In this document: piece after piece, positions 43,853 to 63,261 of the stretch | How the letters are laid out: each line of letters begins with the position of its first letter | Position numbering within the stretch: the first letter of the stretch is position 1 | Assembly (NCBI RefSeq): GCF_963678185.1 | Contig: NZ_OY782757.1 | Span: 1,499,001-1,563,000 of the forward strand | DNA from: an uncultured Tolumonas sp. | Lineage (GTDB): Bacteria; Pseudomonadota; Gammaproteobacteria; Enterobacterales; Aeromonadaceae | Length of the DNA stretch: 64,000 nt | Direction of reading: 5' to 3' | Program-made: the position numbers and the translations under genes | Notes under the pieces: model-generated | The model's database searches: none | The model's input: the letters and a program-made list of their open reading frames with translations, nothing else | Told to the model about the DNA's origin: nothing

Positions 43853-44039
43853 TGCATAACATGTAATCAGCAAAGATCAACAGGCCCTAGTTTCCATATT
43901 TGTTGATTTTTTGATTAAAACGCGATCTTTCAGGATTCATTGTTGTCTCTTCAGTGATAACATAAGATTGGCATATATGGATATGCCTATGCCTATTTGT
44001 AAATTATGGCTATGTTTTTTCAATTTTCAGGATACTTCT

Positions 44040-44540: not shown

Positions 44541-44575
44541 TTGAATTTTTTTATTTAGAAATTTAGTGTAGTTAG

Positions 44576-44605
44576 ATCCCCCTTTAATATTTTAAAGGGG
44601 GGGAT
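44576..44605. terminator. Hairpin between the PEP-CTERM gene and nifA (convergent)
   Basis: ATCCCCCTTTAA pairs with TTAAAGGGGGGAT around a short loop. The U-run is weak on both strands, but the position 32-36 bp from both stops suits a shared terminator. Confidence 0.6.
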
Positions 44606-44636
44606 TCAGTTCAAAATCCCTTTTATCTAGACCCAA

Positions 44637-46229: not shown

Positions 46230-47752
46230 TTTTTATCCTCCCTGATAATGGCGCACAGAGGCAGCCTGAGCCGGATACAACTACCCCCTAAATCACTCGT
46301 TTCCACTTCGATCACCCCTCTATGATCGTTAACGATATTTTGTGCAAAACCTAATTCGATAGTGTCGTTCCGTTTCCCGCCGTTGTCGGTTTGTGGTTGT
46401 AATAAGCGGTGGGTCGCGGTGACAGCGGGTGCTTGCCCACTGTCGTGCACTTCCAGACAAAGTTCCTGTTCGTTCTGATAAGCACATAATTTCAGTTGTC
46501 CGGCCGATTGCCCGGTAACGGCCTGACAGGCGCGATCAAACAACAGACTCAGTGCCGTTAATAAGCGGGTTCGTTGCGTAAACAGTTCCGGTAGATCAGC
46601 GGCGATGTCCAGCTGCATCAGCACATCGAGATGCTCTAAACGCAGTGTCAGCATGTCGTGCAGATCGGCAAACAGACTCATGAGATCAAAACGGGACGGA
46701 TCTTCTGCCTTAATAGCAGGGCGATATTGTTCCAGCTGCTGTAATGCTTGATGCCCGGCATCTAAGGCGGTCTGGATCGCAATGGCCGCCCGGCTGTCGG
46801 GGTTGGATTCCAGACGCAACGCGGCTTGCAGCATGTTGAGGGGCGCCTGACTTTGTACCATCGCAACATCCAGTGTTTCCCGAATGGCAGAAAACAGGGT
46901 TTGTTCTTCCACCTGCATACGCAGTTGTTCCAGACGCGATTGTTCGATCTGCTGTCGGCGTTCGGTTTGATCGCTGATCATCAACAACGCGCACGGTTTT
47001 TTCCCTTCGCCAAAATAGTTGCTGGCTTCTTCATTCAGCTCAGACAGTGGCTGGATCAGAATGCTGAACCAACGCTGACGACCACGGATGGTCAGTGGCC
47101 ACAGCTGGTCACGATCCGGGCGTTGGGCTCCTGGTGTAAAACCCAGTGCGGTGTAAGGTTCATGACCACGCAGGTCAGTGCGTAGAGTTTTGTAGGTCAG
47201 GTTGTCGAGCACGACCTGATGATGTTCATCGAGCACGGCAATGGCCGTTGGTGCGGCATCGAGCACCGCTTCAATCATCGCTTTTTGGTTGTGTACCCGC
47301 TGTTCCAACGCAAATTGCTCGCTGATATCACGGTGCATGCCCAGATAGTGGGTGATCTGGCCTTCGCCGTTGACCACTGGCGTGACGGTCACTTCCGCCA
47401 AATATAAAGAGCCATCTTTACGTTTGTTGATCAGCCGGCCCGTCCACGGTTGATGCTGCGATAACTGATGCCACATCGCCTGATAGCGTGATTTCGGAGT
47501 TTGCTGGCTGGCCAGAATATTGTGGTTCCGATATTGCAGCTCACCGCGTTTATAACCGGTGGTACGACAAAAAGCGGTATTACAATACAGAATGTTGGCA
47601 TTCGGATCGGTGATCGATATGCCGACAGATGATTGCTCAACCACACCATAAAACAGCTCCATCGGCAGCACAGACAGCATTTGCTGTAGGCTAGCACTGT
47701 TGATGCAGACCGCTCCGGTGGTCTCAGGGATATAGTTTTGCAGGATGTTCAT
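46226..47752 (-). CDS. nifL: Nitrogen fixation regulatory protein NifL
   Basis: NifL is the anti-activator that blocks NifA when oxygen or fixed nitrogen is present. The 508-aa protein has PAS1 (about 32-150, with NANILYCNTAFCRTTGY), which binds FAD as redox sensor in the family, PAS2 (about 155-280), a helical H-like region (about 285-400) and a GHKL-type ATP-binding C-terminus (HDSGQAP, then IELGFAQNIV). The transmitter lacks a clear phosphorylatable His, as in other NifL proteins. I start at ATG 47752 preceded by GAGAGG; the frame runs 17 codons further upstream. It is divergent from rnfA. Confidence 0.94.
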   Translation of the reverse strand: MNILQNYIPETTGAVCINSASLQQMLSVLPMELFYGVVEQSSVGISITDPNANILYCNTAFCRTTGYKRGELQYRNHNILASQQTPKSRYQAMWHQLSQHQPWTGRLINKRKDGSLYLAEVTVTPVVNGEGQITHYLGMHRDISEQFALEQRVHNQKAMIEAVLDAAPTAIAVLDEHHQVVLDNLTYKTLRTDLRGHEPYTALGFTPGAQRPDRDQLWPLTIRGRQRWFSILIQPLSELNEEASNYFGEGKKPCALLMISDQTERRQQIEQSRLEQLRMQVEEQTLFSAIRETLDVAMVQSQAPLNMLQAALRLESNPDSRAAIAIQTALDAGHQALQQLEQYRPAIKAEDPSRFDLMSLFADLHDMLTLRLEHLDVLMQLDIAADLPELFTQRTRLLTALSLLFDRACQAVTGQSAGQLKLCAYQNEQELCLEVHDSGQAPAVTATHRLLQPQTDNGGKRNDTIELGFAQNIVNDHRGVIEVETSDLGGSCIRLRLPLCAIIREDKK

Positions 47753-47858
47753 ATCCTCTCCTTTCTTCACGCGTTCATTCGCCAGCTGTGAGCAATCAGA
47801 CAATTTGTCGGTGTTGATGAATCTGTGATGTGGTTGTCGCCAGACCTGTTTGATAAAA

Positions 47859-47907: not shown

Positions 47908-47923
47908 TGTTATATCCAGAACA
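47908..47923. promoter_or_regulatory. NifA upstream activator sequence (TGT-N10-ACA), site 1
   Basis: TGTTATATCCAGAACA fits the NifA site exactly. It lies 139 bp upstream of the rnfA -24 element and 36 bp from the nifL one. Confidence 0.5.
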
Positions 47924-48039: not shown

Positions 48040-48055
48040 TGTGATGCAGCACACA
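48040..48055. promoter_or_regulatory. NifA upstream activator sequence (TGT-N10-ACA), site 2
   Basis: TGTGATGCAGCACACA fits TGT-N10-ACA. It is close to the rnfA promoter but about 170 bp upstream of the nifL -24 element. It also partly matches a CRP site (TGTGA at the left), so the identity is open. Confidence 0.4.
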
Positions 48056-48060
48056 ATTTT

Positions 48061-48076
48061 TGGCATAAGTTTCGCA
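48061..48076 (+). promoter_or_regulatory. Sigma54-like promoter for the rnf operon
   Basis: TGGCATAAGTTTCGCA has GG and GC exactly ten bases apart and the TGGCA core of -24. The predicted start near 48087 gives a leader of about 27 nt with AGGAG at 48099. Confidence 0.65.
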
Positions 48077-48113: not shown

Positions 48114-48692
48114 ATGCATGAACTGCTGCTAATCATACTGGCCAACGGGCTGGTGAATAATGTGGTGCTGTCCCGCTTTTTGGGGCTGTGCTCATTCATG
48201 GGGGTAACCAACAAAATCGAATCTGCCATTGGCATGTCGATGGCCACCACCTTCGTTATTACGGTATCAAGCTGTGTCAGCTGGGTGCTGAACTACGCCG
48301 TGTTAGACCCGCTCGGGCTCGGTTATCTGCGTCTTATCTCTTTCATCATGGTTATTGCATCGCTGGTGCAGTTAACCGAACTGTTTGTCGCCAAATACAG
48401 CCCTGAGTTGTATCGCACGCTGGGGATCTTCTTGCCGTTGATCACCACCAACTGTGCGGTGCTGGGGGTCGCTTTGCTGGTGATCGAAGAAGACCTGAGC
48501 TTCATTAAATGTCTGTTCTTCTCGTTCAGCTCGGCGCTGGGTTATTCGTTGGTAATGGTGTTGTTTTCTGGCTTGCGTGAACGTCAGGAGCGCGCGCAGT
48601 TACCTGATTTATTCCGTGGTGTTCCACTCAACTTTATCACTGCCGGCATTCTGGCATTGTCATTTGCCGGCTTTGCGGGTCTGGCGGGTTAA
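48114..48692 (+). CDS. rnfA: Rnf electron transport complex subunit RnfA
   Basis: RnfA is an integral membrane subunit of the ion-pumping NADH:ferredoxin oxidoreductase Rnf. The 192-residue protein has six predicted membrane helices; the segment NGLVNNVVLSRFLGLCSFMGV and the central FLPLITTNCAVLGVALL (half-membrane Cys that bind an iron-sulfur cluster with RnfE in the family) are intact. I start at ATG 48114 (MHELLLIIL) with GAGAGG upstream. As first gene of rnfABCDGEH next to nifLA, this is the nif-linked rnf1 type known in Azotobacter. Confidence 0.95.
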   Translation: MHELLLIILANGLVNNVVLSRFLGLCSFMGVTNKIESAIGMSMATTFVITVSSCVSWVLNYAVLDPLGLGYLRLISFIMVIASLVQLTELFVAKYSPELYRTLGIFLPLITTNCAVLGVALLVIEEDLSFIKCLFFSFSSALGYSLVMVLFSGLRERQERAQLPDLFRGVPLNFITAGILALSFAGFAGLAG

Positions 48693-48703
48693 GGAGAATA
48701 ACG

Positions 48704-49249
48704 ATGATGACTTTACTAGCAGTAGTGGCCATTCCTCTGTTTGCTGCCGTGATCGGTTATGCGCTGGGTTATGCCGCGATCCACTTTAAGGTGGAAGGTG
48801 ATCCTTTGGCGGAAGCCATCAACGATTTATTACCACATGGTCACTGTGGACAGTGTGGTTACCCGGGTTGTGCGCAAGCGGCCAAAGCAATGGCGCGCGG
48901 TGAAGCAGCCCCAACTGTTTGCCCACCAGGTGGTACGGTGCTGGCGCAGAAAATTGCCGCCGTATTGGGTGTCAGCCTGAATGCCGATGATCAGCAAGGC
49001 CCTGTCGTGGCCGCAATTGATATGAGCAGCTGCGATGGTTGTGGCCGTTGTATCAAACAATGCACTTACGACGCGATTATTGGTGCGACTCGTCAGTTAC
49101 ATGGGGTGATTGCCGATGCCTGTACCGGTTGTGGCGCTTGTGTGAAAGTCTGCCCACACGGTGGCGTCAATCTCTATGCCGACCCCGCGTTGACATTGCA
49201 AGTCAGCAAACCAGGAACCAGCCCAGCAGGAGAATGGAATCATGCTTAA
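48704..49249 (+). CDS. rnfB: Rnf complex ferredoxin-type subunit RnfB
   Basis: RnfB is the iron-sulfur subunit that donates to ferredoxin or flavodoxin. The 181-aa protein has one N-terminal membrane anchor (about 2-25), a four-Cys cluster motif in HGHCGQCGYPGC with the later CPPGG, and two ferredoxin-type clusters, CDGCGRCIKQC and CTGCGACVKVCP. AAGGAG precedes it. It overlaps rnfC by eight bases. Confidence 0.95.
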   Translation: MMTLLAVVAIPLFAAVIGYALGYAAIHFKVEGDPLAEAINDLLPHGHCGQCGYPGCAQAAKAMARGEAAPTVCPPGGTVLAQKIAAVLGVSLNADDQQGPVVAAIDMSSCDGCGRCIKQCTYDAIIGATRQLHGVIADACTGCGACVKVCPHGGVNLYADPALTLQVSKPGTSPAGEWNHA

Positions 49250-50690
49250 GGCCAAGATCAAACCACATGGTGGCGTGCATCCTGACGGGCATAAACATCT
49301 GACCAGTCAGAGCCCGATCAAAGCGATGAAACTGCCTCGTCGCTTAATTGTGTCGCTGAAACAACACACCGGCGCCCCTGCCGTACCGGTGGTGGAAGTC
49401 GGTGATCGTGTGATCGGAAATCAGTTGCTGGCCAAAGGTAATGGCCGTGCTTCATCACCGGTGCATGCGCCACTGGCGGGTGATATCACCGACATCAATC
49501 TGGAAAAACAAACCATCACCATCAAGGTCGATCAGGATAAGCAGGAAAGCAGCAAATCGCTGATGCGCTATGAAGAGCTGCCGGAACGTGACGCATTACT
49601 GTCGCTGATCGAACAAGCCGGTATTGTCGGCATGGGCGGCGCGATGTTCCCGGCCGCTGACAAAATTCGCATGAGTCTGCGTTTCCCAATCGAAACGCTG
49701 ATCATCAACGGCAGTGAATGTGAGCCTTACCTGACCGTCGATGACCGTTTGATGCAGGAACAAGGAGAACAGCTGATTGGTGGTATTCGTTTTCTGAAAC
49801 AGATCACCAAAGCTAAACGGGTGTATATCGGCATTGAAGATAACAAACCCGATGCACTGGCAACACTCGATGCCTTGTGTGAATTAGAAGACGGCATGGA
49901 TGTCGTGGCACTGCCCGCTTTATACCCTATGGGCTCGGCCAAACAGATGATCGAAGCCGTGACCGGTATGCAGATCCCACAGGGCAAACGTTCCACTGAA
50001 ATGGGTGTACTGGTACAAAACGTCGGTACCTGTATTGCCATCTTTAACGCCATTCGCTTTGAAAGACCACTGACCCATCGTGTCGTGACGGTCAGCGGTG
50101 GCGCCATCGAAGAACCCACCAATCTGATGGTACCGATTGGTACGCCAGTGTCTGAGTTGATCGAACAGTGTGGCGGTTTGAAAGAAGATGCCGCCCGCAT
50201 GGTACTCGGTGGCCCCATGATGGGTCGTGCGATTACCGACATTCATGAGCCGGTCACCAAAGGCACCAGTGGTCTGTTATTACTGACACAAAATGAGCTG
50301 CCCAAACCACAAGCCAGCGCTTGTGTACGTTGTGGCCGTTGCATGGATGTCTGTCCAATGAGCCTGCCGCCGTTGGATATGGTCGTTGAGATCAAAGTCG
50401 ACAATCTGAACACCGCAAAAAATATGGGGCTGGAAGAGTGTCTGTTGTGTGGCTCTTGTTCCTATGTCTGCCCGGCTGCGATTCCGCTGACACAGTATTT
50501 TGACTGGGGGCAACAAGAGCTCAACCGTCAGTGGCGTATGGAACAAAAAACCAAACGCACTTGTGACAACAGCGCCGCACACCGTGAACGCATGGAACGT
50601 GAAGCCGCAGAACGCGAAGCTGCTAAAGCAGCCAAACAACAAACACGACGTCCATCTCGTCGCTCAACTACATCGCAGGAGGCATCATGA
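49242..50690 (+). CDS. rnfC: Rnf complex subunit RnfC
   Basis: RnfC is the peripheral subunit that binds NADH and FMN. The 482-residue protein has the N-terminal barrel-sandwich region (GGVHPDGHK), the nucleotide-binding GIVGMGGAMFPAADK near 128-140, and two [4Fe-4S] motifs, CVRCGRCMDVCP near 361 and CLLCGSCSYVCP near 400. The C-terminal tail is only about 70 residues of Ala/Arg/Glu-rich helix, shorter than the long repeat tail of E. coli RsxC (740 aa). Confidence 0.95.
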   Translation: MLKAKIKPHGGVHPDGHKHLTSQSPIKAMKLPRRLIVSLKQHTGAPAVPVVEVGDRVIGNQLLAKGNGRASSPVHAPLAGDITDINLEKQTITIKVDQDKQESSKSLMRYEELPERDALLSLIEQAGIVGMGGAMFPAADKIRMSLRFPIETLIINGSECEPYLTVDDRLMQEQGEQLIGGIRFLKQITKAKRVYIGIEDNKPDALATLDALCELEDGMDVVALPALYPMGSAKQMIEAVTGMQIPQGKRSTEMGVLVQNVGTCIAIFNAIRFERPLTHRVVTVSGGAIEEPTNLMVPIGTPVSELIEQCGGLKEDAARMVLGGPMMGRAITDIHEPVTKGTSGLLLLTQNELPKPQASACVRCGRCMDVCPMSLPPLDMVVEIKVDNLNTAKNMGLEECLLCGSCSYVCPAAIPLTQYFDWGQQELNRQWRMEQKTKRTCDNSAAHRERMEREAAEREAAKAAKQQTRRPSRRSTTSQEAS

Positions 50691-51667
50691 CTCTAATGGC
50701 CCCACATGCACATGAAGGACTCACCATCCAGCGTGTGATGTTTAAAGTTAACCTGGCGCTGATCCCCGCCGCGCTGTTTGGCGTGTTGCAGTTTGGGATG
50801 CCCGCGCTGTTTTTGATGCTGACCTGTGTGCTCAGTTGCTGGCTGTGTGAGTTGATCGCGTTAAAGCTCAACCCGAAGGCGGGTGGTGAATTGACCGATG
50901 GCGCCAGCTTGCTGACTGCATTGATTTTAGGCATGAGCTTACCGCCGCACGCCCCGCTTTGGCTGGGTGCGTTGGGTGGCATGATTGCTATTTTATTCGG
51001 TAAACACATCTACGGTGGTTTGGGGCAAAACCTGTTTAACCCTGCCATGCTGGCCCGCGTCGTCTTGTTGATCGCTTTCCCTGTGCAGATGACCCACTGG
51101 GTAGAACCGAGTGCCTTTATGGACGGTCAGTTTTACAAGATGGGCGTCGATGGTGTCTCTGGCGCCACGACGTTGGGCTATTTCAAAGAAAGCCATAAAC
51201 AGAGCTTTGAGTGGATGCATCATCTGATGGGCACCAGCAAAGGCAGTATGGGGGAAACCTCTTCCATTCTGTTGCTGCTGGGTGGTTTGTGGTTGTTACA
51301 GCAGAAAGTGTTCACCTGGCATGCGCCGGTGGCAACACTGGCAGGCTGTCTGGTGCCAGGCGCCCTGCATTGGTTGCTGTCTCCTGCATCAATTACCGAG
51401 CCTTTAGCGCAATTAACCAGCGGCGGTTTGTTGATTGGCGCGTTCTTCATTGTCACTGATCCGGTCACCACACCAAGCAGCACCAAAGGCAAACTGGTGT
51501 ATGGCCTGATGACCGGCTTCCTGATTTACATTATCCGCAGCTTCGGCAACTTCCCAGAAGGTGTTGCATTTGCGGTGCTGCTGACCAATGCCGCTACCCC
51601 GCTGATTGATAACTTTACCCGCCCGAAAGCCTACGGCTATCAGATGAAAAAGGAGGGACAATCATGA
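50687..51667 (+). CDS. rnfD: Rnf complex subunit RnfD
   Basis: RnfD is a membrane subunit with a covalently bound FMN. The 326-aa protein has about eight to ten membrane helices and the flavinylation motif SGAT in GVDGVSGATTLGYF near residue 165. FGKHIYGGLGQNLFNPAM is the conserved cytoplasmic stretch. The gene overlaps rnfC and rnfG by four bases each. Confidence 0.94.
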   Translation: MTLMAPHAHEGLTIQRVMFKVNLALIPAALFGVLQFGMPALFLMLTCVLSCWLCELIALKLNPKAGGELTDGASLLTALILGMSLPPHAPLWLGALGGMIAILFGKHIYGGLGQNLFNPAMLARVVLLIAFPVQMTHWVEPSAFMDGQFYKMGVDGVSGATTLGYFKESHKQSFEWMHHLMGTSKGSMGETSSILLLLGGLWLLQQKVFTWHAPVATLAGCLVPGALHWLLSPASITEPLAQLTSGGLLIGAFFIVTDPVTTPSSTKGKLVYGLMTGFLIYIIRSFGNFPEGVAFAVLLTNAATPLIDNFTRPKAYGYQMKKEGQS

Positions 51668-52305
51668 GTTCCCAGACCGCAGCTACTATTCCGTTTCGTG
51701 ATAAACCCTATACCCAAGGGCTGATCTTAGGCACGTTTACCTTGTTGGTGTGTGTATTTGTTTCCGCCGTGGCATTTGTCACCAAATCACCGATCAAACA
51801 ACGCCAGATTGAAGATACTCAAAACATGCTGTCGCAGGTTTTTCCAGCCAGCCTATATGACAACCATCTCGGTCAGGAAGAGTACACCCTGACGCTGGAT
51901 GGCAAACCAGTGCATTTCTTTCTGGGTCGTAAAAATGGTGTGCCCAGTGGCATCGTGTTGTTTGCGGACACCACCGGTTATTCCGGTGCCATCAATATGC
52001 TGTTAGGCATTGATGCCAATGGCGTGCTGACCGGCGTGCGAGTAACCAACCACAAAGAAACACCGGGTCTGGGCGATTTGATTGAACCAGCCAAAAGTAA
52101 GTGGATCTTTGGTTTTGAAGGCAAATCACTGGATAACACCTCACAGAAAAACTGGCATGTGAAAAAAGATGGCGGGGAGTTTGACTCCTTTACCGGGGCC
52201 ACGATCACGCCGCGCGGTGTGGTCAAAGGGGTCTACGAAGGGCTACAGCTTTTTGCCAAACATAAAGGCGAGATTCTAAGTGTCAAACAGGGAGAGAAAT
52301 CATGA
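51664..52305 (+). CDS. rnfG: Rnf complex subunit RnfG
   Basis: RnfG is a periplasm-facing flavoprotein with one N-terminal membrane helix (about 18-40). The covalent-FMN motif is TGAT in DSFTGATITPRGVV (about residue 175-185); HKETPGLGD and the flavin-domain start GYSGAINMLLGID are conserved. It has 213 residues and four-base overlaps with rnfD and rnfE. Confidence 0.94.
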   Translation: MSSQTAATIPFRDKPYTQGLILGTFTLLVCVFVSAVAFVTKSPIKQRQIEDTQNMLSQVFPASLYDNHLGQEEYTLTLDGKPVHFFLGRKNGVPSGIVLFADTTGYSGAINMLLGIDANGVLTGVRVTNHKETPGLGDLIEPAKSKWIFGFEGKSLDNTSQKNWHVKKDGGEFDSFTGATITPRGVVKGVYEGLQLFAKHKGEILSVKQGEKS

Positions 52306-52994
52306 GCCATTCCGAACAGAGCTACTATGACATCTTTGCTGATGGTGTTTGGCGCAATAACGTGACGTTCGTTCAGATTTTAGGGTTGTGCCCGTTAATG
52401 GCCATCACCACCACTGCCACCAACGGTGTCGGGATCGGCGTATTGACCATGATGGTCATGACCGGTGCCAATCTGATGGTGTCACTGCTGCGTAAACTGA
52501 CACCGAATCAGATCCGTATTCCTATTTTCATCGTCATTATCGCGTTTTTGGTGACGCTACTCGATCTGACCATGAACGCCTGGATGCACGATTTACACAA
52601 AGTACTAGGGCTGTTCATTCCTTTGATTGTAGCGAACTGTGCACCATTAGGCCGAGCTGAAGCGTTTGCCATGAAAAACAAACCCTTAGCCGCAGCCATG
52701 GACGGTTTTGCGACCGGCATCGGCTTTACGATCGGTGTGACTAGCGTGGGTGCAGTGCGTGAAATCATCGGCAGCGGTACCCTGTTTTCGGGTGCGTCAT
52801 TACTGCTTGGCCCGCATTTTAAATTTTTGGAAATGCACGTATTACCGGGCTACCACGGCTTTTTGCTAATGCTGTTACCACCGGGTGGTTTTGTGGTCAT
52901 GGGGTTATTGCTGGCAGGTATTCGTCTGCGTAAGCGTTTGTTTGCCAAAGACACAACGCCTGTGGTTGCCATTCAAGCTGGAGGTTGTCACTAA
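52302..52994 (+). CDS. rnfE: Rnf complex subunit RnfE
   Basis: RnfE is a paralogue of RnfA with six membrane helices in opposite orientation. The 230-aa protein has WRNNVTFVQILGLCPLMA near the N-terminus and FIPLIVANCAPLGRAEAFA in the middle, with the Cys residues that share a cluster with RnfA. It overlaps rnfG by four bases and rnfH by one. Confidence 0.94.
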   Translation: MSHSEQSYYDIFADGVWRNNVTFVQILGLCPLMAITTTATNGVGIGVLTMMVMTGANLMVSLLRKLTPNQIRIPIFIVIIAFLVTLLDLTMNAWMHDLHKVLGLFIPLIVANCAPLGRAEAFAMKNKPLAAAMDGFATGIGFTIGVTSVGAVREIIGSGTLFSGASLLLGPHFKFLEMHVLPGYHGFLLMLLPPGGFVVMGLLLAGIRLRKRLFAKDTTPVVAIQAGGCH

Positions 52995-53257
52995 TGAAAA
53001 TCAGTGTTGCGCATGCCCGAGGAGCTAAGGGCAACTGGTATCATCTCGATTTACCCGAACCCATTACTGCGGCAGAAGCACTGCGTGCTTCACCGGTATT
53101 CCAGCATTATCCGGATCTGGATTTAGAAACGCATCGCATCGGTATTTTCGGCAAATTTTGCACACCCGATACGGAGTTGAAAGCGGGCGATCGGGTTGAA
53201 ATCTATCTGCCAGTGCAACGTGAACCGGATGCCGATGAAGATGAGGAAGAAGATTAA
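52994..53257 (+). CDS. rnfH: RnfH (ubiquitin-fold, RnfH family)
   Basis: This 87-residue protein has the RnfH/UPF0125 pattern: ISVAHARG at the start, TAAEAL, IGIFGKFCTPDTELKAGDRVEIYLP. It ends in an acidic Asp/Glu run. RnfH accompanies nif-linked rnf operons in Azotobacter and Rhodobacter; its biochemical role is not settled. I use ATG 52994 (MKISVAH), with GGAGG 10 nt upstream, rather than the upstream in-frame start in rnfE. Confidence 0.88.
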   Translation: MKISVAHARGAKGNWYHLDLPEPITAAEALRASPVFQHYPDLDLETHRIGIFGKFCTPDTELKAGDRVEIYLPVQREPDADEDEEED

Positions 53258-53395
53258 TCACACCGGCAAATAACATGCACTGATAAATGGCGTTGAGATA
53301 GATTCGAAGCCAGATATTTAAGATAGATATCTTCGTACATAAAAAGCCTGTTAAAATTCCGGAAAATAATTCGGGCCAGCATTGGCCATTACGAA

Positions 53396-53433
53396 CCACA
53401 ACCAGAAAAGCTTGTTAAGTTTTCTGGTTGTGG
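53396..53433 (+). terminator. Strong 14-bp hairpin between rnfH and nhaD
   Basis: CCACAACCAGAAAA is followed after ten bases by its exact complement; the AAAA/TTTT part lies at the loop end. It ends 20 bp before the nhaD ATG. No U-run follows directly, so it could act as terminator of rnf, as an RNA-stability element, or as a control element of nhaD. Confidence 0.5.
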
Positions 53434-53453
53434 TGTTTCTGGATAAGTTGTAA

Positions 53454-54785
53454 ATGAAAAAAAATACTGTTGTTTCCGGTTTTACCCGCACTCTCTGTGT
53501 ACTGTTCACCCTGCTATTGCCTACATTGGCACTCGCTTCTGATGGCAGTGGCATGCTGCAATTAGGCGGCATCCGGATTGAATTTATACTCTTCGCTGTC
53601 ACCCTGCTCGGAGTAGCTTTGTTTCATAACTACACCATGTGGGTGTCATTGGCCGGACTTTCCGCCATTTTGATCAGTAAATATCTGTTCCTGAATGATT
53701 TTTCATTTACTCAGCACATTTTTGGCAGCAGCGGGCATGAAGGTGAATGGCGTGTTCTGCTTAACTTGATTGGTCTGCTGTTTGGTTTTGCTATTTTGGC
53801 CAAACATTTCGAAGAATCGGAATTGCCGAAGATATTGCCTAAATATCTGCCGGATGATTGGAAAGGTGGATTCGTATTACTGATCATGATTTTCGTGATC
53901 AGCGCCTTCCTCGACAATATTGCCGCCGCCATGATTGGTGGTGCGGTCGCTTTTGTGGTGTTCAACAAACGCGTACATATCGGTTATCTCGCCGCCATTG
54001 TGGCCGCCAGTAATGCCGGTGGTTCAGGCTCAGTGGTCGGTGACACCACCACCACACTGATGTGGATCGACGGCGTTAATCCACTGCATGTGTTGCATGC
54101 GTATATCGCTGCGGGCACTGCATTAATCCTATTTGGTGTTATTGCCTCCATTCAACAAGATAAATATCAGCGCATTACCAAAGATGCACCGATAGGTGTC
54201 ACCGTTGAGTGGAAAAAATTAGGCATCGTTGCGTTGATCCTAGTGTGTGCAATTATCGCAAATTATGCATTGGACTTTCCGGCTCTCGGTGTCTGGGTCG
54301 CTATTTTGCTTGGAGCACTAACGGTAAAAACACCATGGGGTGAGCTGAAAAACGCCGCAGCAGGAACGGTATTTCTAGTTGGTTTGGTGACTTGTGCCTC
54401 CTTAATGCCGGTGGACGAGCTACCGCCAGCAACCTGGCTGACCACATTTTATCTTGGTTTTGTTTCTGCCGTGTTTGACAACATTCCACTGACCAAATTG
54501 TGTCTGGAACAAGGTGGTTATGACTGGGGTTTCCTCGCTTATGCGGTGGGTTTTGGTGGTTCTATGTTGTGGTTCGGTTCATCCGCTGGTGTCGCACTCG
54601 CCAACATGTATCCGGAAGCGCGTTCTGCCGTGAGTTGGTTGCGTCAAGGCTGGCATGTCGCCGCAGCTTATGTCATTGGCTTCTTCGTATTACTGGCATT
54701 ATCTGGTTGGGCACCGCATGCCCCACATAAAGCCTCGCAGGAAAACATCGTAAAACAAGAAACCACGACCAAGCCTGATGCATAA
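53454..54785 (+). CDS. nhaD: NhaD-type Na+/H+ antiporter (ion transporter superfamily)
   Basis: The 443-residue membrane protein has an N-terminal hydrophobic, signal-like segment ending ALAS (about 10-30) and eleven or so further spans. Motifs of the NhaD/citrate-transporter (IT) superfamily include FVISAFLDNIAAAMIGGAV, ASNAGGSGSVVGDTTTTLMW and the second-repeat FVSAVFDNIPLTKL, each with the conserved Asp-Asn in a helix break. NhaD exchanges Na+ or Li+ for H+. The Shine-Dalgarno is weak (GATAAG). It sits between rnfH and nifF on the same strand, separated from them by a hairpin and a terminator. A transporter for an organic anion of the same superfamily cannot be fully ruled out. Confidence 0.8.
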   Translation: MKKNTVVSGFTRTLCVLFTLLLPTLALASDGSGMLQLGGIRIEFILFAVTLLGVALFHNYTMWVSLAGLSAILISKYLFLNDFSFTQHIFGSSGHEGEWRVLLNLIGLLFGFAILAKHFEESELPKILPKYLPDDWKGGFVLLIMIFVISAFLDNIAAAMIGGAVAFVVFNKRVHIGYLAAIVAASNAGGSGSVVGDTTTTLMWIDGVNPLHVLHAYIAAGTALILFGVIASIQQDKYQRITKDAPIGVTVEWKKLGIVALILVCAIIANYALDFPALGVWVAILLGALTVKTPWGELKNAAAGTVFLVGLVTCASLMPVDELPPATWLTTFYLGFVSAVFDNIPLTKLCLEQGGYDWGFLAYAVGFGGSMLWFGSSAGVALANMYPEARSAVSWLRQGWHVAAAYVIGFFVLLALSGWAPHAPHKASQENIVKQETTTKPDA

Positions 54786-54811
54786 TCTGCAAAGAATAAT
54801 TTGTTAACTCA

Positions 54812-54839
54812 GAGACCACCCTTGCGGTGGTCTTTTTTT
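54812..54839 (+). terminator. Terminator after nhaD
   Basis: GACCACC / GGTGGTC with a 5-nt loop and a TTTTTTT tail. Confidence 0.88.
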
Positions 54840-54856
54840 GCAGTTTTGTCGCAGAT

Positions 54857-54872
54857 TGTGCGTTTTATCACA
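54857..54872. promoter_or_regulatory. NifA (or CRP) site upstream of nifF
   Basis: TGTGCGTTTTATCACA fits TGT-N10-ACA and also nine of ten CRP positions (TGTGA-N6-TCACA). It is 66 bp upstream of the nifF -24 element. Confidence 0.45.
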
Positions 54873-54937
54873 AGCCACATCAAACAACAGGAAACAACAT
54901 CTCCTTTATTTTCAATAAATTAAGATTTAAATGACGA

Positions 54938-54953
54938 CGGCACTGTTCATGCA
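54938..54953 (+). promoter_or_regulatory. Sigma54-like promoter for nifF
   Basis: CGGCACTGTTCATGCA has GG and GC ten bases apart and matches GGCAC and TGCA of the consensus. It ends 36 bp before the nifF ATG. Confidence 0.65.
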
Positions 54954-54989
54954 GCATAAGAAACAACACCGTATTCAAGGAGAGACACC

Positions 54990-55526
54990 ATGGCTAAAGT
55001 CGGAATTTTCTTCGGAAGTGACACAGGTAAAACTCGCAAGGTTGCGAAACTGATCCAAGACGCATTTGGTAGTGATGAAGTAGCCGCCCCAGTAAACATC
55101 AATAAAGCCAGCATTGATGATCTGTTGGGTTACGAATACCTGATTTTAGGTACACCAACCCTGGGCGATGGTGCCTTACCAGGTTTAGATTGTGACTGCC
55201 AAGCTGAAAGCTGGGCGGAATTTGTACCTGATTTGGAAGCCGCCGATCTGAGTGGTAAAAAAGTAGCGCTGTTCGGTTTAGGTGATCAGGCCAGCTATGG
55301 TGATGCATTCGTGGACGCATTAGGTGAATTATATGATGTGGTGTCTGAAGCCGGCGCGTCTGTTGTGGGGTTCTGGCCTAACGAAGGTTATGAATTTAAC
55401 AGTTCTAATGCGTTGGATGGCGACGATTTTGTTGGTCTGGTTATTGATCAAGATAACCAATCAAGCCTGACCGCAGAACGCGTTAAAACTTGGGTTTCCA
55501 GCCTAAAAACTGAATTTGCACTCTGA
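54990..55526 (+). CDS. nifF: Nitrogenase electron-donor flavodoxin NifF
   Basis: NifF passes electrons to the nitrogenase Fe protein. The 178-aa long-chain flavodoxin has the FMN phosphate loop GSDTGKTRKVA (about 9-19), LGTPTLGDGALPGL (isoalloxazine loop 1) and FGLGDQASYGDAF (loop 2), and the ending GLVIDQDNQ typical of Klebsiella NifF. AAGGAGAG precedes the ATG. It has its own sigma54-like promoter and terminator, thus a single-gene unit. Confidence 0.93.
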   Translation: MAKVGIFFGSDTGKTRKVAKLIQDAFGSDEVAAPVNINKASIDDLLGYEYLILGTPTLGDGALPGLDCDCQAESWAEFVPDLEAADLSGKKVALFGLGDQASYGDAFVDALGELYDVVSEAGASVVGFWPNEGYEFNSSNALDGDDFVGLVIDQDNQSSLTAERVKTWVSSLKTEFAL

Positions 55527-55554
55527 TACTCCGTTCTACTACTCGTCAAGTTTT

Positions 55555-55590
55555 GAGCCGCAGAATCCTGCACCTGCGGCTCCTTTTTCT
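55555..55590 (+). terminator. Terminator after nifF
   Basis: GAGCCGCAG / CTGCGGCTC with a 10-nt loop, followed by CTTTTT. Confidence 0.85.
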
Positions 55591-55659
55591 GCTTTTTGCA
55601 CTGCTACCCCGTTTGACGCATAATTACGCTCTCTTCTGACTCCATGGGTTCCTTTCCCA

Positions 55660-56904
55660 ATGGCACATTTGAAACAACACATAGGTTTATGGCAAGGCAC
55701 CGGTTTGCTGGTTTCCACCCTGCTTGGCTCCGGCGTTTTTATTGTTCCAGCCATGACAGCCAGTCTGGCGGGAAGCTGGTCGTTACTGGCTTGGGTATTA
55801 ATGGGCGCACTGATCTTGCCTATCGTTTTTACGTTTGCCTCGTTAGGTAAACGTTACCCCGATGCCGGTGGCACCGCTTTTTTTGTGGAGCAAGCATTTG
55901 GCGAGCGTGCGGCGGATGCGATCAGCTGGTTATTTTTGTCAGTTATTATGATTGGCCCGCCTGTGGTGATTGTCACTGCCACCGGTTATTTGTGCCAAAC
56001 ATTTGGTTTGCCGGAAAGCCAACATGGCATCTGGCAATTCCTGCTATTGGGCAGCATGCTGGGGCTGAATTTACTGAATATGAAAACAGCAGCGTGGATC
56101 CAAAGTTTTATCAGCTTTGGCATTTGCAGCACGCTGTTGTTAGCGGTGGGTTTATATCTTTATGGCCATCCGGTCAGTTTACCGGCCACCAATTTTTCGC
56201 TGACCAATCTGGCACAAGCAACCGGGCTGATTTTCTGGTGTTTCGTCGGCATTGAAGCGATTGCTCACTTAAGTGGCGAATTTCATCATCCAGCACGTGA
56301 TTTTCCACGGGTCGTTATGCTGGGTATGCTCATCGCGTTAGTGTTGTATCTGTGTCTGAGCACCGTGCTGCTTTCATCTGGTTTTTACGGCAATGAAGCG
56401 CAAAATCTGACTTCGATTATTCAGTTGATGAGTTCTCTCACTGGCCAAACTGGCCATCTGTTGATCGGCTTATTTGGTCTGATGACCTGTTTCATCGCGG
56501 TAAATCTCTATATCACCAGCTTCTCGCGTTTGTTTTATAGCATGGCAGAACGCGGGCAGATCCATGCCTGGGCCGGTAAACTCAATCGTTACGGTGCGCC
56601 CACCAATGGCCTGCTGGTCACCTGCGGGCTCATTGCCATCACCTTATTACTTCGAATGAGCGTGCATTTGCCGCTTGATGGATTGATCGGTTATGCCAAT
56701 GGTGTGTTTGTGCTGATCTACCTTTCGGCAGCGTTGTCGGGCTTGAAACTACTGCCAGGTAAAGAGCGCAAACTGGCCATCATGGCAACAGGAGTTTGTC
56801 TGCTGGTAGCGGCATCACTGGCACTGCATACGCTGTATGCCGCAGCAGTTTTAGGTGCTTGTTTGTTACACAAGCGCCATCCACAAGCCGATAACCAGAA
56901 GTAG
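55660..56904 (+). CDS. yjeH: APC-family amino-acid exporter (YjeH-like)
   Basis: The 414-residue protein has about twelve membrane helices and the APC-superfamily features GLLVSTLLGSGVFIVPA in TM1 and FWCFVGIEAIAHLSGEF in TM6, both nearly matching E. coli YjeH, which exports methionine and branched-chain amino acids. Other pieces (RYPDAGGTAFFVEQAFG, YANGVFVLIYL) also agree. It is preceded by the nifF terminator and has its own upstream region. Substrate is inferred only from YjeH. Confidence 0.82.
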   Translation: MAHLKQHIGLWQGTGLLVSTLLGSGVFIVPAMTASLAGSWSLLAWVLMGALILPIVFTFASLGKRYPDAGGTAFFVEQAFGERAADAISWLFLSVIMIGPPVVIVTATGYLCQTFGLPESQHGIWQFLLLGSMLGLNLLNMKTAAWIQSFISFGICSTLLLAVGLYLYGHPVSLPATNFSLTNLAQATGLIFWCFVGIEAIAHLSGEFHHPARDFPRVVMLGMLIALVLYLCLSTVLLSSGFYGNEAQNLTSIIQLMSSLTGQTGHLLIGLFGLMTCFIAVNLYITSFSRLFYSMAERGQIHAWAGKLNRYGAPTNGLLVTCGLIAITLLLRMSVHLPLDGLIGYANGVFVLIYLSAALSGLKLLPGKERKLAIMATGVCLLVAASLALHTLYAAAVLGACLLHKRHPQADNQK

Positions 56905-56964
56905 TTTTAGCAATGTAGGCACGTGGCTTACTCATGTGCCTACATCCAGCTTACGTTTTGGTTT

Positions 56965-56980
56965 TGTGCTGAATAGCACA
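56965..56980. promoter_or_regulatory. Operator-like palindrome upstream of pntA
   Basis: TGTGCT-GAAT-AGCACA is a perfect 6+6 palindrome in the 315-bp gap before pntA, and also fits TGT-N10-ACA. No GG-N10-GC promoter lies at a proper distance, so NifA control is not supported. The rest of the gap shows an AT-rich stretch (57077-57093) but no clear boxes. Confidence 0.35.
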
Positions 56981-57219
56981 GTTTTCCCGCAAATTGTCAT
57001 TTTCGGCTCATGCGTAAAATGAGGCGCTAATTTCTAAAAATGCTGTTTTCATAGTGCACTGCATGCTAACTAAATGTTTTTGTTATTATAAATTCCAATT
57101 TTAGTAATTAACGAAGCTTGGCTTTCGTGTTAAGAACGTTTATTGCAATGCCAATCAACCTCGCTTTGAGGCTGTTTAGTACAGCGCAACCCTACTCTAT
57201 TCGTTACGAGGATCCTTGC

Positions 57220-58752
57220 ATGTTAGTAGGAATACCGAGAGAAAGCCTTGCCGGTGAGACGCGGGTCGCTGCGACTCCGAACACCGTTGAGCAACTAAAA
57301 AAACTCGGCTTCGACGTGGTTGTCGAGTCTGGCGCGGGTGCACTGGCCAGCTTTGATGATGCCGCGTATGTCGCCGCCGGCGCCAGCGTCGCCGCGTCTG
57401 CCGATATCTGGCAGGCCGATATTATTTACAAGGTGAATGCCCCGTCCGATGCCGAAATCGGTCTGATTAAAGAGGGTGCTACCTTAGTCAGTTTCCTGTG
57501 GCCAGCACAAAACCCTGAGCTCGTCGCCAAACTGTCGACTAAAAAAATCAATGTACTGGCGATGGACATGGTGCCGCGTATTTCGCGTGCGCAGTCCTTG
57601 GATGCCTTGTCTTCGATGGCCAACATTGGTGGTTACCGTGCGGTGATTGAAGCAGCCCATTCATTTGGTCGTTTCTTCACCGGTCAAATCACCGCTGCCG
57701 GTAAAGTACCGCCAGCCAAAGTGCTGGTGATTGGTGCCGGTGTTGCCGGTCTGGCTGCGATTGGTTCAGCGCGTTCACTGGGTGCGATTGTGCGTGCCTT
57801 TGATACCCGTTTAGAAGTGGCGGAACAAATCGAATCCATGGGTGGCGAGTTCCTGAAACTCGACTTCGGTGGGGAAGACGGTTCATCGTCGGACGGTTAC
57901 GCGAAAGTCATGTCCGATGAGTTCATCAAAGCGGAAATGGCCCTGTTCGCGGAACAAGCCAAAGACGTGGATATCATCATCACCACGGCGCTTATTCCAG
58001 GTAAACCCGCACCAAAACTGATTACCAAGGAAATGGTTGATTCGATGAAACCGGGCTCGGTGATTGTCGATTTGGCCGCAGCGACCGGTGGTAACTGTGA
58101 ATACACCGTACCGGGTACACTGTCCGTGACCGACTCAGGTGTGAAAGTGATTGGTTACACCGACCTGCCAGGTCGTCTGCCAACGCAGTCTTCACAGCTG
58201 TATGCCACCAACCTGGTGAACTTGGCCAAACTGTGGTGCAAAGAGAAAGACGGCAACATCAATCTGGATTTCAACGACGTCGTGTTGCGTAACATGACCG
58301 TAGTGCATCAAGGTGAAGTGACCTTCCCGCCACCGGCGATCAGTGTTTCTGCGGCACCGAAACAAGAAGCGGCCAAACCAGCTGCGGCGAAAGTCGAAGC
58401 GAAGAAACCATGTAAGTCGAAAAAATGGCTGGGCGTGGTGGGCTTAGGGCTGTTTGGTCTGTTAGGCCATGTGGCACCGCCAGAGTTCCTGTCGCATTTC
58501 ACCGTATTTGTACTGGCCTGTGTGGTGGGTTATTACGTGGTATGGAACGTCAGCCACTCACTGCATACACCACTGATGTCAGTAACAAACGCGATTTCCG
58601 GCATCATCGTGGTCGGCGCCCTGTTACAGATTGGCAGTGGCTCGGGTCTGGTGTCAGCACTGGCGTTTGTCGCCGTACTGATTGCCACCATTAACATCGT
58701 CGGTGGTTTCACCGTGACTCAGCGCATGCTGAAGATGTTCCGTAAGGGTTAA
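57220..58752 (+). CDS. pntA: NAD(P) transhydrogenase subunit alpha
   Basis: PntA with PntB moves hydride between NADH and NADP+ coupled to proton flow. The 510-aa chain carries the NAD(H)-binding domain I (about 1-380; [22 protein letters not shown] near 165-190) fused to the four-helix domain IIa (about 400-510), as in E. coli. I start at ATG 57220 (MLVGIPRES), the family start, with GAGG nine bases upstream; the frame continues to 57118 without conservation. pntB follows 11 bp later. Confidence 0.96.
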
Positions 58753-58763
58753 GGGGAGCTGAC

Positions 58764-60260
58764 ATGTCTCAAGGTTTAGTAACTGCTTCATACATCGTGG
58801 CAGCGGTGCTGTTCATTGCCAGTCTGGCGGGTTTGTCGAAACAGGAGACCGCAAAATACGGTAACTTGTTTGGCATGACCGGGATGGCAATTGCACTGAT
58901 TGCGACCATTGCCAGCCCAAGCGTGCATGGTGTGGTCTTTATTCTGGTGGCGATGGTCATCGGTGGCTCTATTGGTGCACGTTTAGCACTGAAAGTTGAA
59001 ATGACCCAAATGCCTGAGCTGGTTGCAGTATTGCACAGCTTTGTGGGTTTGGCGGCCGTTTTAGTAGGCTATAACAGCTTCATCGAACTGTTACCGGCTA
59101 ACGCGGTGCAACAACTGGTGTTGCCACTGAACGGCTCACCGGAAGAAATCATGGCGGCGGCACAAGCAGCCATCAGCCAGATTGCACAACAAACCGCGAA
59201 TGGTCACGGTCATCTGACCGGCGCGATGCTGAACATCCACCTGACTGAAATCTTCTTAGGCGTGTTCATCGGTGCGGTGACCTTCACCGGCTCTATTGTG
59301 GCGTTCGGTAAATTGCGTGGCACTATCAGCTCGAAACCGCTGAATATTCCACACAAACATAAACTGAACCTGCTGGCCGCAGTGGCCTCGTTCCTGCTGA
59401 TGCTGTTGTTCATCAAAGTCGGTGGCTCAACGTTTGCTATCATCGTGATGACGCTGATTGCACTGGCGTTCGGCTGGCATCTGGTCGCCTCTATCGGTGG
59501 TGCGGATATGCCAGTCGTGGTTTCCATGCTGAACTCCTACTCCGGTTGGGCGGCCGCAGCAGCCGGCTTTATGCTGTCTAACGACCTGCTGATTGTGACC
59601 GGTGCCTTGGTGGGCTCGTCAGGTGCCATCCTGTCTTACATCATGTGTAAGGCGATGAACCGTTCGTTTATCTCCGTGATTGCCGGTGGTTTTGGTACTG
59701 ATGGTGTGGCATCTTCCTCTTCGGAAGAAGAGATGGGCGAATACCGTGAAATGTCACCGGAAGATGTGGCTGAGCTGCTGAAGAACTCCAGCTCCGTTAT
59801 CATCACCCCGGGCTACGGCATGGCGGTAGCCCAGGCACAATACCCGGTTGCGGACATCACCCAGAAACTGCGTGATAAAGGCATCAACGTGCGCTTTGGT
59901 ATCCACCCGGTGGCGGGTCGTCTGCCAGGTCACATGAACGTGCTGCTGGCGGAAGCGAAAGTACCTTACGATATCGTGCTGGAAATGGACGAAATCAACG
60001 AAGACTTCACAGAGACTGACACCGTACTGGTTATCGGTGCCAACGACACCGTGAACCCGGCGGCGATGGAAGACCCGGGCAGCCCGATTGCCGGTATGCC
60101 AGTGCTGGAAGTGTGGAAAGCGCAGAACGTAGTGGTGTTCAAACGTTCGATGAACACCGGTTACGCCGGCGTGCAGAACCCGCTGTTCTTCAAAGAGAAC
60201 TCGCACATGTGCTTTGGTGATGCAAAAGCCACCGTAGAAGCCATTCTGAAAGCGCTGTAA
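58764..60260 (+). CDS. pntB: NAD(P) transhydrogenase subunit beta
   Basis: PntB has nine membrane helices (domain IIb, about 1-270) forming the proton path and the NADP(H)-binding domain III (about 310-498) with [18 protein letters not shown] and [23 protein letters not shown]. The length of 498 aa is slightly longer than E. coli PntB (462), with an insertion near [23 protein letters not shown] precedes the ATG. Confidence 0.96.
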
Positions 60261-60393: not shown

Positions 60394-61569
60394 ATGACAA
60401 TCAGTACCTCGCTTTGGTTTGTGTACCATTCCATTATTTATGCTGGAATTTGTGGCCTGCTGCTGACTTTGGTGCCGCATCTGCGCCTACACAAACGCAC
60501 GTTGTGGATCTACTGGATCATCAACCTGCTGATTTTCAGTATTTGGCTAATCTCGCAATTTTCTGAGCAAAACTGGCTGGTCACTTCAACACCGCTACGC
60601 TGGATCATCGCATTGTGGCTCAATGCATCGATGGCTTATGTCGCTATCGGTGGTGGTTTTACCGTGTTACGTGTATTGCTGCGCGTGGCGCGGCGAAAAT
60701 TGAGCGCTCACTTCTGGCATCAGCCCAATGCCATCTTGCTGCCATTGGTCTGGATGTTATCTGCGTTCGGTGTTTATGAGGCGATGTCAGCACCGCTGTT
60801 ACGCCATTATGATGTCTATCTGGAACAACTTCCCGCTGAGTTAGATGGGTTTAAAATTGCGCAAATCACAGATAGTCATGTCGGCGATTTTGTGGGTAGT
60901 CGTGAATTGGCCAACGCCGTTAGCCGACTAAATGCCACAAACCCTGATTTACTGGTCATGACCGGTGATTTACTCGATGACGAACGCCAGTTAGACAGCG
61001 CCTTTGCCGCCCTCACCCAGGCCAATGCGCCGATGGGCGTGGTTGCCATTCTGGGAAATCATGAGAAATATCATGGTCTGCCAACTATTTTGCAAAAATA
61101 CAAAACCGAAGCAACACAGACTAATTTACGTCTGCTGGTTGATGAAAATATTACACTGAATTATCACGGTGCCGAATTTCAGATCGTCGGGGTCGATTAT
61201 CCCATTCTGCCGGATAGCCGTCGCCGGATGGCTGAAACAGCTAAGTTGGATTACATGCAACGCTCAGCAGATAAAGCATTCCGCGGGGTTAAACCCAGCG
61301 AGTGGATTTTATGCCTGACACATCATCCGGACTTTTTTGATCTCGCAGCAACAAACCATGCTGGCCTGAGTTTGGCCGGACACACCCACGGTGGGCAGGT
61401 TTTACCATTAGGTTACACGGTCGGCAAATTATGGTTTAACTATTTAAAAGGCTGGTATCAACTGCACTCAAGTCAGTTGTTTGTATCGGTAGGCATGGGT
61501 CATGTTTGGCCTTACCGCTTAGGTGTGCCGCCTGAGATTGTGACCTTTACGCTGCACCGAAAAATATAA
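60394..61569 (+). CDS. Membrane-anchored metallophosphoesterase (YkuE/YaeI-like)
   Basis: The 391-aa protein has about four N-terminal membrane helices (residues 8-125) and a calcineurin-type phosphoesterase domain (about 150-385). All metal-binding blocks are present: ITDSHVGD, MTGDLLDD, ILGNHEKYHG, LTHHPDFF and LAGHTHGGQ. Relatives include YkuE and YaeI, which act on lipid or nucleotide phosphates, but the substrate is unknown. It is convergent with nifM and separated from pntB by a terminator. No link to nitrogen fixation is evident. Confidence 0.82.
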   Translation: MTISTSLWFVYHSIIYAGICGLLLTLVPHLRLHKRTLWIYWIINLLIFSIWLISQFSEQNWLVTSTPLRWIIALWLNASMAYVAIGGGFTVLRVLLRVARRKLSAHFWHQPNAILLPLVWMLSAFGVYEAMSAPLLRHYDVYLEQLPAELDGFKIAQITDSHVGDFVGSRELANAVSRLNATNPDLLVMTGDLLDDERQLDSAFAALTQANAPMGVVAILGNHEKYHGLPTILQKYKTEATQTNLRLLVDENITLNYHGAEFQIVGVDYPILPDSRRRMAETAKLDYMQRSADKAFRGVKPSEWILCLTHHPDFFDLAATNHAGLSLAGHTHGGQVLPLGYTVGKLWFNYLKGWYQLHSSQLFVSVGMGHVWPYRLGVPPEIVTFTLHRKI

Positions 61570-61621: not shown

Positions 61622-62461
61622 TTACGCCTCCTGTTGCATCAACCAAGTCAGCCACTGTTTTTGCAGTTTTTTCTTCGCCTGTTGTAACTGTGCTTCGATA
61701 ATTTTTGGCACCGCTTCGCTGAGTGGCATCGGAGCGGCAGCATGGATTTTTTCACACCACAGCAGATGAAATCCCATCGGGCTACGCGTGATCTGACTAA
61801 ACCCACGTTCTGGCAGCTGAAACAACACTGCATCCAATTCTGGATAGAGTTGCCCCGCCTTCACCAGACCAATTTTTCCTTCATTGACGGCAGTGGGACA
61901 TTCCGAATAGCGCATCGCTAAATCGGCAAATTTCCCCGGCGAACTGATCAACTGGCTACGGATATTCTGCAACCGCGCATAAGATGTTTCCTCGTAGTTC
62001 TCAGGGTTGGTATCGTCAATCGTGATCAAGATATGCCGCACCAAACGACGTTCCGGTTGCAAGAATTGACGCGGATGATCCAGATACCACGATTTAGCTG
62101 CTTCTTCCGTCAACGGTTTGATATTTTCGACCACTTTGTCCATCACCTGCGACACCAACAGCTCACGCCGCAGCGCCTCTTTCAGACTTGGCAGATCCAG
62201 CTTTACCGTGGCCATTGAGGCTTTCCAGGCTTCTTCATCCGGATAAGCTTTTTTAACCTCTTCAAGTGCCGCATTCAGATCAGCGGCTGACACAGACATT
62301 TCCGCCTGTGCTGCGTAATCAAGAATACGTGCTTCCATCGCCAATTGGTGATCGAGCATTTTTGCCAGCTGGCTTTGTTCATCCGCCGACAAGTCAGCGG
62401 GCACTTTACCAAAATGCTGGGCTGCCAGTTTTAAGGTGGGATACGCTTGCCAATTCAGCAT
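61622..62461 (-). CDS. nifM: Peptidyl-prolyl isomerase NifM
   Basis: NifM is the PpiC-type isomerase needed to mature the nitrogenase Fe protein NifH. The 279-residue protein has an N-terminal SurA-like helical region (about 1-120) and a parvulin domain (about 125-245) with RRLVRHILITIDD, FADLAMRYSECPTAVNEGKIG and SPMGFHLLWCEK. It has no signal peptide, so it is cytosolic, as expected. It overlaps nifZ by seven bases and is the last gene of nifVWZM; a hairpin (AGGAGGC / GCCTCCT) overlaps its stop. Confidence 0.92.
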   Translation of the reverse strand: MLNWQAYPTLKLAAQHFGKVPADLSADEQSQLAKMLDHQLAMEARILDYAAQAEMSVSAADLNAALEEVKKAYPDEEAWKASMATVKLDLPSLKEALRRELLVSQVMDKVVENIKPLTEEAAKSWYLDHPRQFLQPERRLVRHILITIDDTNPENYEETSYARLQNIRSQLISSPGKFADLAMRYSECPTAVNEGKIGLVKAGQLYPELDAVLFQLPERGFSQITRSPMGFHLLWCEKIHAAAPMPLSEAVPKIIEAQLQQAKKKLQKQWLTWLMQQEA

Positions 62462-63242: not shown

Positions 63243-63261
63243 AGAGACTCCTTGGCCTGCA

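Follow-up and report, generated by a model that had tools for sequence, protein, structure and literature searches.

Results

The window, a stretch of 64,000 nucleotides from an uncultured Tolumonas sp. (G000:C1:1499001-1563000; G000 is the source genome, one contig of 3.95 Mb), carries a run of plus-strand genes between nif genes, called the island here: the Rnf complex, an NhaD-like antiporter, the flavodoxin NifF and the membrane transhydrogenase PntAB. The original prediction took them for one module energising nitrogenase. We find that the island pntAB is the second copy in its genome, has its own control region and accompanies one of two Rnf alleles in Tolumonas. The genes are as follows, in window coordinates.

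48114 to 53257, plus strand: rnfABCDGEH, allele A (profile matches; cofactor motifs)
53454 to 54785, plus strand: NhaD-like antiporter, distant subfamily (sub-cut-off profiles, profile-profile alignment)
54990 to 55526, plus strand: nifF, long-chain flavodoxin (TIGR01752, 212 bits, cut-off 147)
55660 to 56904, plus strand: amino-acid permease of the L-methionine/branched-chain kind, 414 aa (NF008245, 366 bits, cut-off 284)
57220 to 60260, plus strand: pntAB, island copy, membrane transhydrogenase (TIGR00561, 892 bits, and NF006974, 887 bits, both above cut-offs), with pntA from ATG 57220 to 58752 and pntB from 58764 to 60260

Open reading frames and profile scores bear out the predicted positions and the common strand of Rnf, the NhaD-like gene, nifF, pntA and pntB. 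Both PntAB subunits pass the curated family cut-offs in the profile scan, and ATG 57220 is a more likely start of pntA than the TTG of the longest frame. The rnfABCDGE(H) set is complete, with the 4Fe-4S motifs of RnfB and RnfC and the flavin-attachment motifs of RnfD and RnfG. Position and promoter suggest that nifF encodes the nitrogenase flavodoxin. The claim that every gene of the stretch serves membrane energy or redox supply is contradicted by the permease gene (55660-56904), which had been overlooked: it lies between nifF and pntA, and therefore not every gene is redox-related.

The duplicate status of pntAB is visible only outside the window, from a genome-wide search. Among 11 Tolumonas genomes (G000-G010, the source genome included), G000 and G002 each have two pntB copies. 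G005 has an open island copy and a second copy split into two frames (L058, L057); icd is also split in this genome, so sequencing error is possible for the split copy. A single pntB match is found in G001, G003, G004, G007, G009 and G010 and none in G008, while two partial matches at contig ends in G006 look, by their coordinates, like one broken copy. The second place is named housekeeping since its flanks can be aligned from genome to genome. In G000 and G002 the duplicated DNA starts no more than 9 bases away from the A of the pntA ATG and stops 1-54 bases past the pntB stop. The flanks of the two copies are otherwise unshared in G000, G002 and G005. Island and housekeeping pntAB are 98.0% identical in G000, 96.1% in G005 and 99.4% in G002. 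Identity within a genome exceeds that between genomes, in G005 only slightly (pntA 96.3 versus 95.8), and the two copies of each genome are sisters in the tree with a support of 100. Of 3,041 positions in G000, the 62 mismatches all fall at 0-407 and 2386-3010 (408 bases at the start and 655 at the end), on either side of one tract.

57628 to 59605, plus strand: 1,978-bp tract identical to housekeeping pntAB (copy alignment; gene conversion)

In G002 there are zero mismatches between the copies from position 303 to 2298. If mismatches were evenly spread, gaps of this size would have a chance of about 5e-29 (G000) and 5e-10 (G002), for tracts picked post hoc. The N-termini differ as well, being ML[VI] in island PntA and MQI in housekeeping PntA. 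A fresh duplication was rejected, given that mismatches stand only at the ends in G000 and G002 and that the island upstream region is homologous between distant relatives. By these alignments, the pair is a set of old duplicates homogenised by gene conversion.

The DNA upstream of island pntA differs from that upstream of housekeeping pntA. Over 324 bases reaching just into the gene it is 89-100% identical in G000, G001 and G005; in G002, 264 bases align at 72% identity, and the region is missing from the other seven Tolumonas genomes. Conservation is strongest in TGTGCTGAAYAGCACA and in a pair of short palindromes 5' of the start codon.

56965 to 56980, unstranded: palindrome TGTGCTGAATAGCACA (TGT-N10-ACA and TGTG-N8-CACA) 5' of island pntA, in 4/4 island copies
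57158 to 57185, unstranded: paired short palindromes in the pntA leader, with 0-1 mismatch in G000, G001, G002 and G005

The first palindrome, which holds a NifA-type TGT-N10-ACA upstream site in all four island copies, is absent within 400 bp upstream of all eight housekeeping pntA copies compared. The paired palindromes are unmatched in the seven other Tolumonas genomes (pattern built from G000 and G002). Two further candidates were rejected here. A known RNA element in the leader has no Rfam match at E<=1, and the double palindrome folds no better than shuffles (z -0.58); GTAC-N6-GTAC, which we take to be the VnfA-type motif, has its sole match in 44-64 kb at 50130, inside rnfC.

The following elements stand before rnfA and nifF.

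47908 to 47923, unstranded: NifA-type upstream site TGT-N10-ACA of rnfA, kept in 9/9 aligned islands (by eye)
48040 to 48055, unstranded: TGTG-N8-CACA palindrome 5' of rnfA, in 9/9 islands with a readable nifL-rnfA gap
48061 to 48076, plus strand: -24/-12 element of rnfA (sigma-54 type), GG-N10-GC (by eye; kept in the alignments of both alleles)
54857 to 54872, unstranded: NifA-type site and TGTG-N8-CACA palindrome of nifF, in 9/9 islands with a readable nifF front
54938 to 54953, plus strand: -24/-12 element of nifF, GG-N10-GC (pattern match, alignment)

Sequence signals of the co-regulation that the module calls for are seen in part: rnfA and nifF have NifA-type sites and -24/-12 elements, whereas pntA has the palindrome only and the NhaD-like gene has no recognisable conserved promoter of its own in the island alignments. 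The window has four TGTG-N8-CACA sites where 1.9 are expected, an ordinary count that 17 of 100 shuffles reach, and 163 kb of G000 DNA has six. Three of the four window sites fall between genes, in front of rnfA, nifF and pntA (about 1e-5 by chance, computed post hoc). From its sequence the palindrome may be a site for NifA or one of CRP-like kind.

Two rnf alleles occupy this locus in Tolumonas. Allele A is found in G000, G001, G002 and G005 and allele B in G003, G004, G006, G007, G009 and G010, split in the tree at 100/100 support. G008 (70% complete) lacks NifA above cut-off as well as RnfC of either allele and is excluded from all island counts. The alleles share about 61-74% DNA identity across rnfA-rnfE and 72-79% in rnfH, ranges that leave out spurious matches (44-50%) for G010 rnfA and G001 rnfE, and the scanned cofactor motifs are found in both alike. 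When G000 is scanned in 300-base steps against its near relatives G009 and G006, identity is 88-97% at 44.9-48.2 kb, 66-83% where alignable at 48.2-54.8 kb, 84-88% for most of nifF and 90-96% at 55.4-56.9 kb. Past pntAB, G009 is 90-93% identical to G000, and G006 drops to 69-87% and then climbs. A core tree (mnmA, purB, nifA, nifL) rejects allele A as a single clade (p-AU 2.3e-7) but does not reject G000, G001 and G005 as one (p-AU 0.42). Supported branches force at least two allele changes, both firmly supported, and the best tree has three. The identity profile and the trees thus show that the rnf block has been swapped by recombination. The island pntA region is present with allele A in 4/4 genomes and with allele B in 0/6 (Fisher p 0.005, relatedness ignored, a count that includes the incomplete genomes G003 and G006).

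As far as contigs allow, all 10 islands have the order purB, nifAL, rnf, nifF, permease, yaeI, nifMZ(W)V, except that G004 has no permease and that yaeI and nifM are not matched in the 14.9 kb past pntB in G005. Island pntAB lies 3' of the permease in G000, G005 and G001, where the contig stops within pntA. An NhaD-like gene stands between rnf and nifF in eight of the nine readable islands, that of G000 included (G001 is unreadable); in G002 it is missing from the island and a relative is present elsewhere in the genome.

To place the island in the order, we took a sample of 394 genomes, of which 24 including G000 have NifL above cut-off, and compared the 30-40 kb that surround nifL in 20 of the remaining 23 (G089, G140 and G157 are not included). 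Outside Tolumonas, rnf adjoins nifL in 19/20 genomes, and nifF lies in the compared stretch in 20/20, at most 3 kb from rnfE in 16 of them. The nifLA-rnf-nifF core is thus conserved and ordinary. Rnf1 of Azotobacter vinelandii is likewise linked to nifLA, and in the window rnf adjoins nifLA and has a NifA-type site and a -24/-12 promoter, both read by eye. No NhaD-like, PntA or PntB match occurs in the same 20 stretches (tblastn, E<=1e-10), and therefore NhaD and PntAB both look like additions of the genus. Order beyond the strain is accordingly kept within Tolumonas (NhaD-like gene 8/9, island pntA region 4/10) and not outside it (0/20). More widely, 54 nif-bearing genomes were searched for pntB relative to one nif marker each (nifD or nifL): 46 have a match, at 48 places, of which 13 share the contig of the marker, the nearest 126 kb off, and 35 are on other contigs. 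An RnfC scan of genome contigs gave 71 loci, one of them from Tolumonas (L176, G001); the remainder have at most 39% identity.

The label NhaD-type exchanger fits the antiporter gene in part: its protein is related to NhaD by profile, but only as a distant relative. It scores 57.2 bits against TIGR00775 (cut-off 577.1) and 40.9 against NF038006 (cut-off 80), and no Pfam family matches at E<=1. In a profile-profile alignment (hhalign) with five canonical NhaD proteins it reaches a probability of 97.8 and E 1.1e-12 over 291 columns, and it has in common with them the membrane-core motifs DN, NAGG..GD.TT, DNIP and GS.AGVA, whose polar residues we take to be the ion-site residues of NhaD. It is like the NhaD antiporters in profile and motifs and unlike them in falling below both family cut-offs. 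A canonical NhaD or NhaC was rejected by scores far below cut-off, and PF03553 has no match in G000. Of 368 other genomes of the class, 10 have members of the subfamily, at 42-62% identity (E<=1e-12). Neighbour families of NhaD-like genes outside the island recur in at most 3 of the 15 loci compared; two families recur together at L062, L073 and L078. Extra copies (71-76% identity) lie off the nif island at L074, L079, L062 and L008 in G009, G010 and G002.

Four hairpins divide the stretch.

53395 to 53434, plus strand: strong hairpin in the gap between rnfH and the NhaD-like gene (fold z -5.0)
54811 to 54838, plus strand: terminator-like hairpin with T run, 3' of the NhaD-like gene (fold analysis)
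55555 to 55582, plus strand: terminator-like hairpin 3' of nifF (fold analysis)
56913 to 56945, plus strand: strong hairpin in the permease/pntA gap (fold z -6.3)

Standing in the rnfH/nhaD, nhaD/nifF, nifF/permease and permease/pntA gaps, they suggest several transcription units and make a single operon unlikely. In allele B strains the NhaD-like gene may be transcribed together with rnf, while G000 has a strong hairpin in between.

The nif genes of the flanks are those described in the original prediction and lie on the minus strand at both sides; a metallophosphoesterase gene that it does not mention separates pntB from nifM.

44637 to 46229, minus strand: nifA, nif-specific activator (TIGR01817, 710 bits, cut-off 529)
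46226 to 47803, minus strand: nifL, negative regulator (TIGR02938, 337 bits, cut-off 242)
60394 to 61569, plus strand: metallophosphoesterase between pntB and nifM (YaeI-like, a sub-cut-off match; PF00149)
61622 to 63966, minus strand: nifM, nifZ, nifW and a partial nifV-like gene (profile scans)

The true start of nifL is probably inside the longest frame rather than at its beginning, and the nifV-like gene has an HMGL-like plus a homocitrate-synthase domain. The metallophosphoesterase is probably not part of the system. The purB-nifA gap of the window (42510-44636) is about 2.1 kb long and encodes a PEP-CTERM protein (43911-44540); the gap is below 0.1 kb in eight relatives where readable, and matching DNA is absent from seven of them.

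G000 also has a vanadium nitrogenase, at L256 (G000:C1:512000-531999), with VnfD at 955 bits (cut-off 823) and VnfG at 142.0 (cut-off 141.7); vnfK is assigned by position only. Beside it lie an oxidoreductase that matches FixC below cut-off (62 bits), two frames read by eye as FixA and FixB, of which one was scanned and had no match, and, nearby, two NifA-like regulators. By equal AnfD-model scores (699-702 bits) the V-type is also found in G001, G002, G005 and G010, and AnfD is above cut-off in G005 and G009. G005 seemingly has three nitrogenases, Fe-only above cut-off and V-type and Mo-type by score. The V-type is present in 4/4 allele A and 1/6 allele B genomes (Fisher p 0.048); with relatedness considered, two supported pairs are left, too few for significance, which at 0.05 takes at least six informative pairs. 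The exception, G010, is a draft (87% complete, 7% contamination), and G003 (63%) and G006 (87%) may miss genes.

Discussion

The original prediction is partly confirmed in what it observed and partly supported in how it read the island. In our reading, to which we give about an even chance, the known nif-linked supply line of Rnf and a flavodoxin is joined by a lineage-specific pntAB that balances NADPH and NADH during N2 fixation. Rnf would draw on an ion gradient to drive electrons from NADH onto the flavodoxin NifF, which passes them to nitrogenase, and the NhaD-like antiporter would offset the ion entry through Rnf. One Rnf allele lineage of Tolumonas would have gained another pntAB under a control region of its own, letting the transhydrogenase rise under N2-fixing conditions apart from the housekeeping copy. 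The most likely task of island PntAB would be to keep the NADH/NADPH ratio in step as Rnf drains NADH. Hydride would probably pass from NADPH to NADH, with the reverse direction, NADPH for ammonium assimilation, nearly as likely. A nif-dedicated copy is supported indirectly by the separate control region, the upkeep of the genes and the co-occurrence with one Rnf allele.

Literature precedent, as far as the accessible parts of the sources go, exists for both NifA-affected and Rnf1-like transhydrogenases (PMC3916325, PMC12811062). In Azoarcus sp. BH72, the transhydrogenase genes azo1003-1005 are among the clusters strongly activated by NifA (PMC3916325), a possible likeness to the island copy, although the accessible account tells of no nif-island duplicate and is silent on a NifA site at these genes. 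In A. vinelandii, sthA lies beside apbE, and the two genes are of equal importance on acetate, the condition under which rnf1 counts most (PMC12811062). This ties a transhydrogenase to Rnf1 by acetate fitness, but SthA is soluble and linked to apbE, whereas PntAB is a proton-driven membrane enzyme. Among the enzymes added in a model of A. vinelandii and said to act in nitrogen fixation is a transhydrogenase (PMC8686835). No transhydrogenase or NhaD linked to rnf1 is mentioned in the accessible parts, and Tolumonas differs in having two exchangeable rnf alleles at one locus. A literature search that did not reach most subscription journals found no nif-island pntAB duplicate and no nif-island NhaD in Tolumonas.

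Several observations weigh against the balancing role. PntB is absent around nifL outside the genus, and allele B genomes with nif islands manage without island pntAB. No GG-N10-GC promoter occurs in front of pntA between 56905 and 57220 (pattern and eye), and therefore NifA/sigma-54 control of pntAB stays a candidate. The nifH region has no TGTG-N8-CACA, and the palindrome also resembles a CRP site. Island pntAB lies 5' of the permease in G002, unlike in G000, and the G005 copies differ by 120 scattered mismatches, a weak homogenisation, so conversion there is older or partial. In Azoarcus, azo1003-1005 are, by the accessible account, unmodulated by ammonia or glutamate (PMC3916325).

It is possible, if somewhat doubtful, that island pntAB instead feeds assimilation: paying with proton entry, it would use NADH to make the NADPH that turns freshly fixed ammonium into glutamate, and its position next to rnf would then reflect shared timing only. 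This overlaps partly with the balancing role, and the co-occurrence and control-region data fit it equally well. PntAB usually runs towards NADPH, which favours assimilation, yet PntAB would then compete with Rnf for NADH and gradient, and the association with one Rnf allele would go unexplained. We consider it unlikely that the island copy is a passenger, a chance duplicate kept alike by gene conversion with no role in N2 fixation. Conversion can be neutral, the copy is placed differently in G002 and G000, and allele B relatives do without it. However, island pntB is open, with no stop, in G000, G002 and G005, and G000 and G002 still share the upstream elements although the whole region is 72% identical.

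The module first proposed, in which NhaD, Rnf, NifF and PntAB form one unit linking Na+/H+ gradients and NADH/NADPH to nitrogenase, seems to us equally improbable. It draws on the physical order, with the NhaD-like gene between rnf and nifF in most Tolumonas islands. Against it, hairpins divide the stretch, an unrelated permease lies inside, and the Na+ coupling is putative. The parts also separate: G002 has allele A and pntAB with no island NhaD-like gene, and allele B genomes have the NhaD-like gene without pntAB. With neither NhaD-like gene nor PntAB in the 20 stretches outside the genus, and with unequal promoter signals, the ion-coupled module as such is unsupported.

More speculatively, and rather unlikely in our estimate, one Tolumonas nif locus would hold either of two interchangeable electron-supply packages. 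Package A, Rnf allele A with a dedicated, separately regulated PntAB, would be a version for high demand, selected in strains that have V-nitrogenase as well, an enzyme with a higher electron cost per N2; package B would serve strains that lack it. Recombination would swap packages with flanks nearly unchanged.

For engineered nitrogen fixation it is of practical interest what supplies the NADH for Rnf-driven nitrogenase and how NADPH and NADH are balanced during fixation. A duplicate pntAB in the island that goes with one Rnf allele is a natural experiment on this: close relatives differ in the package between similar flanks, and its effect is therefore directly testable.

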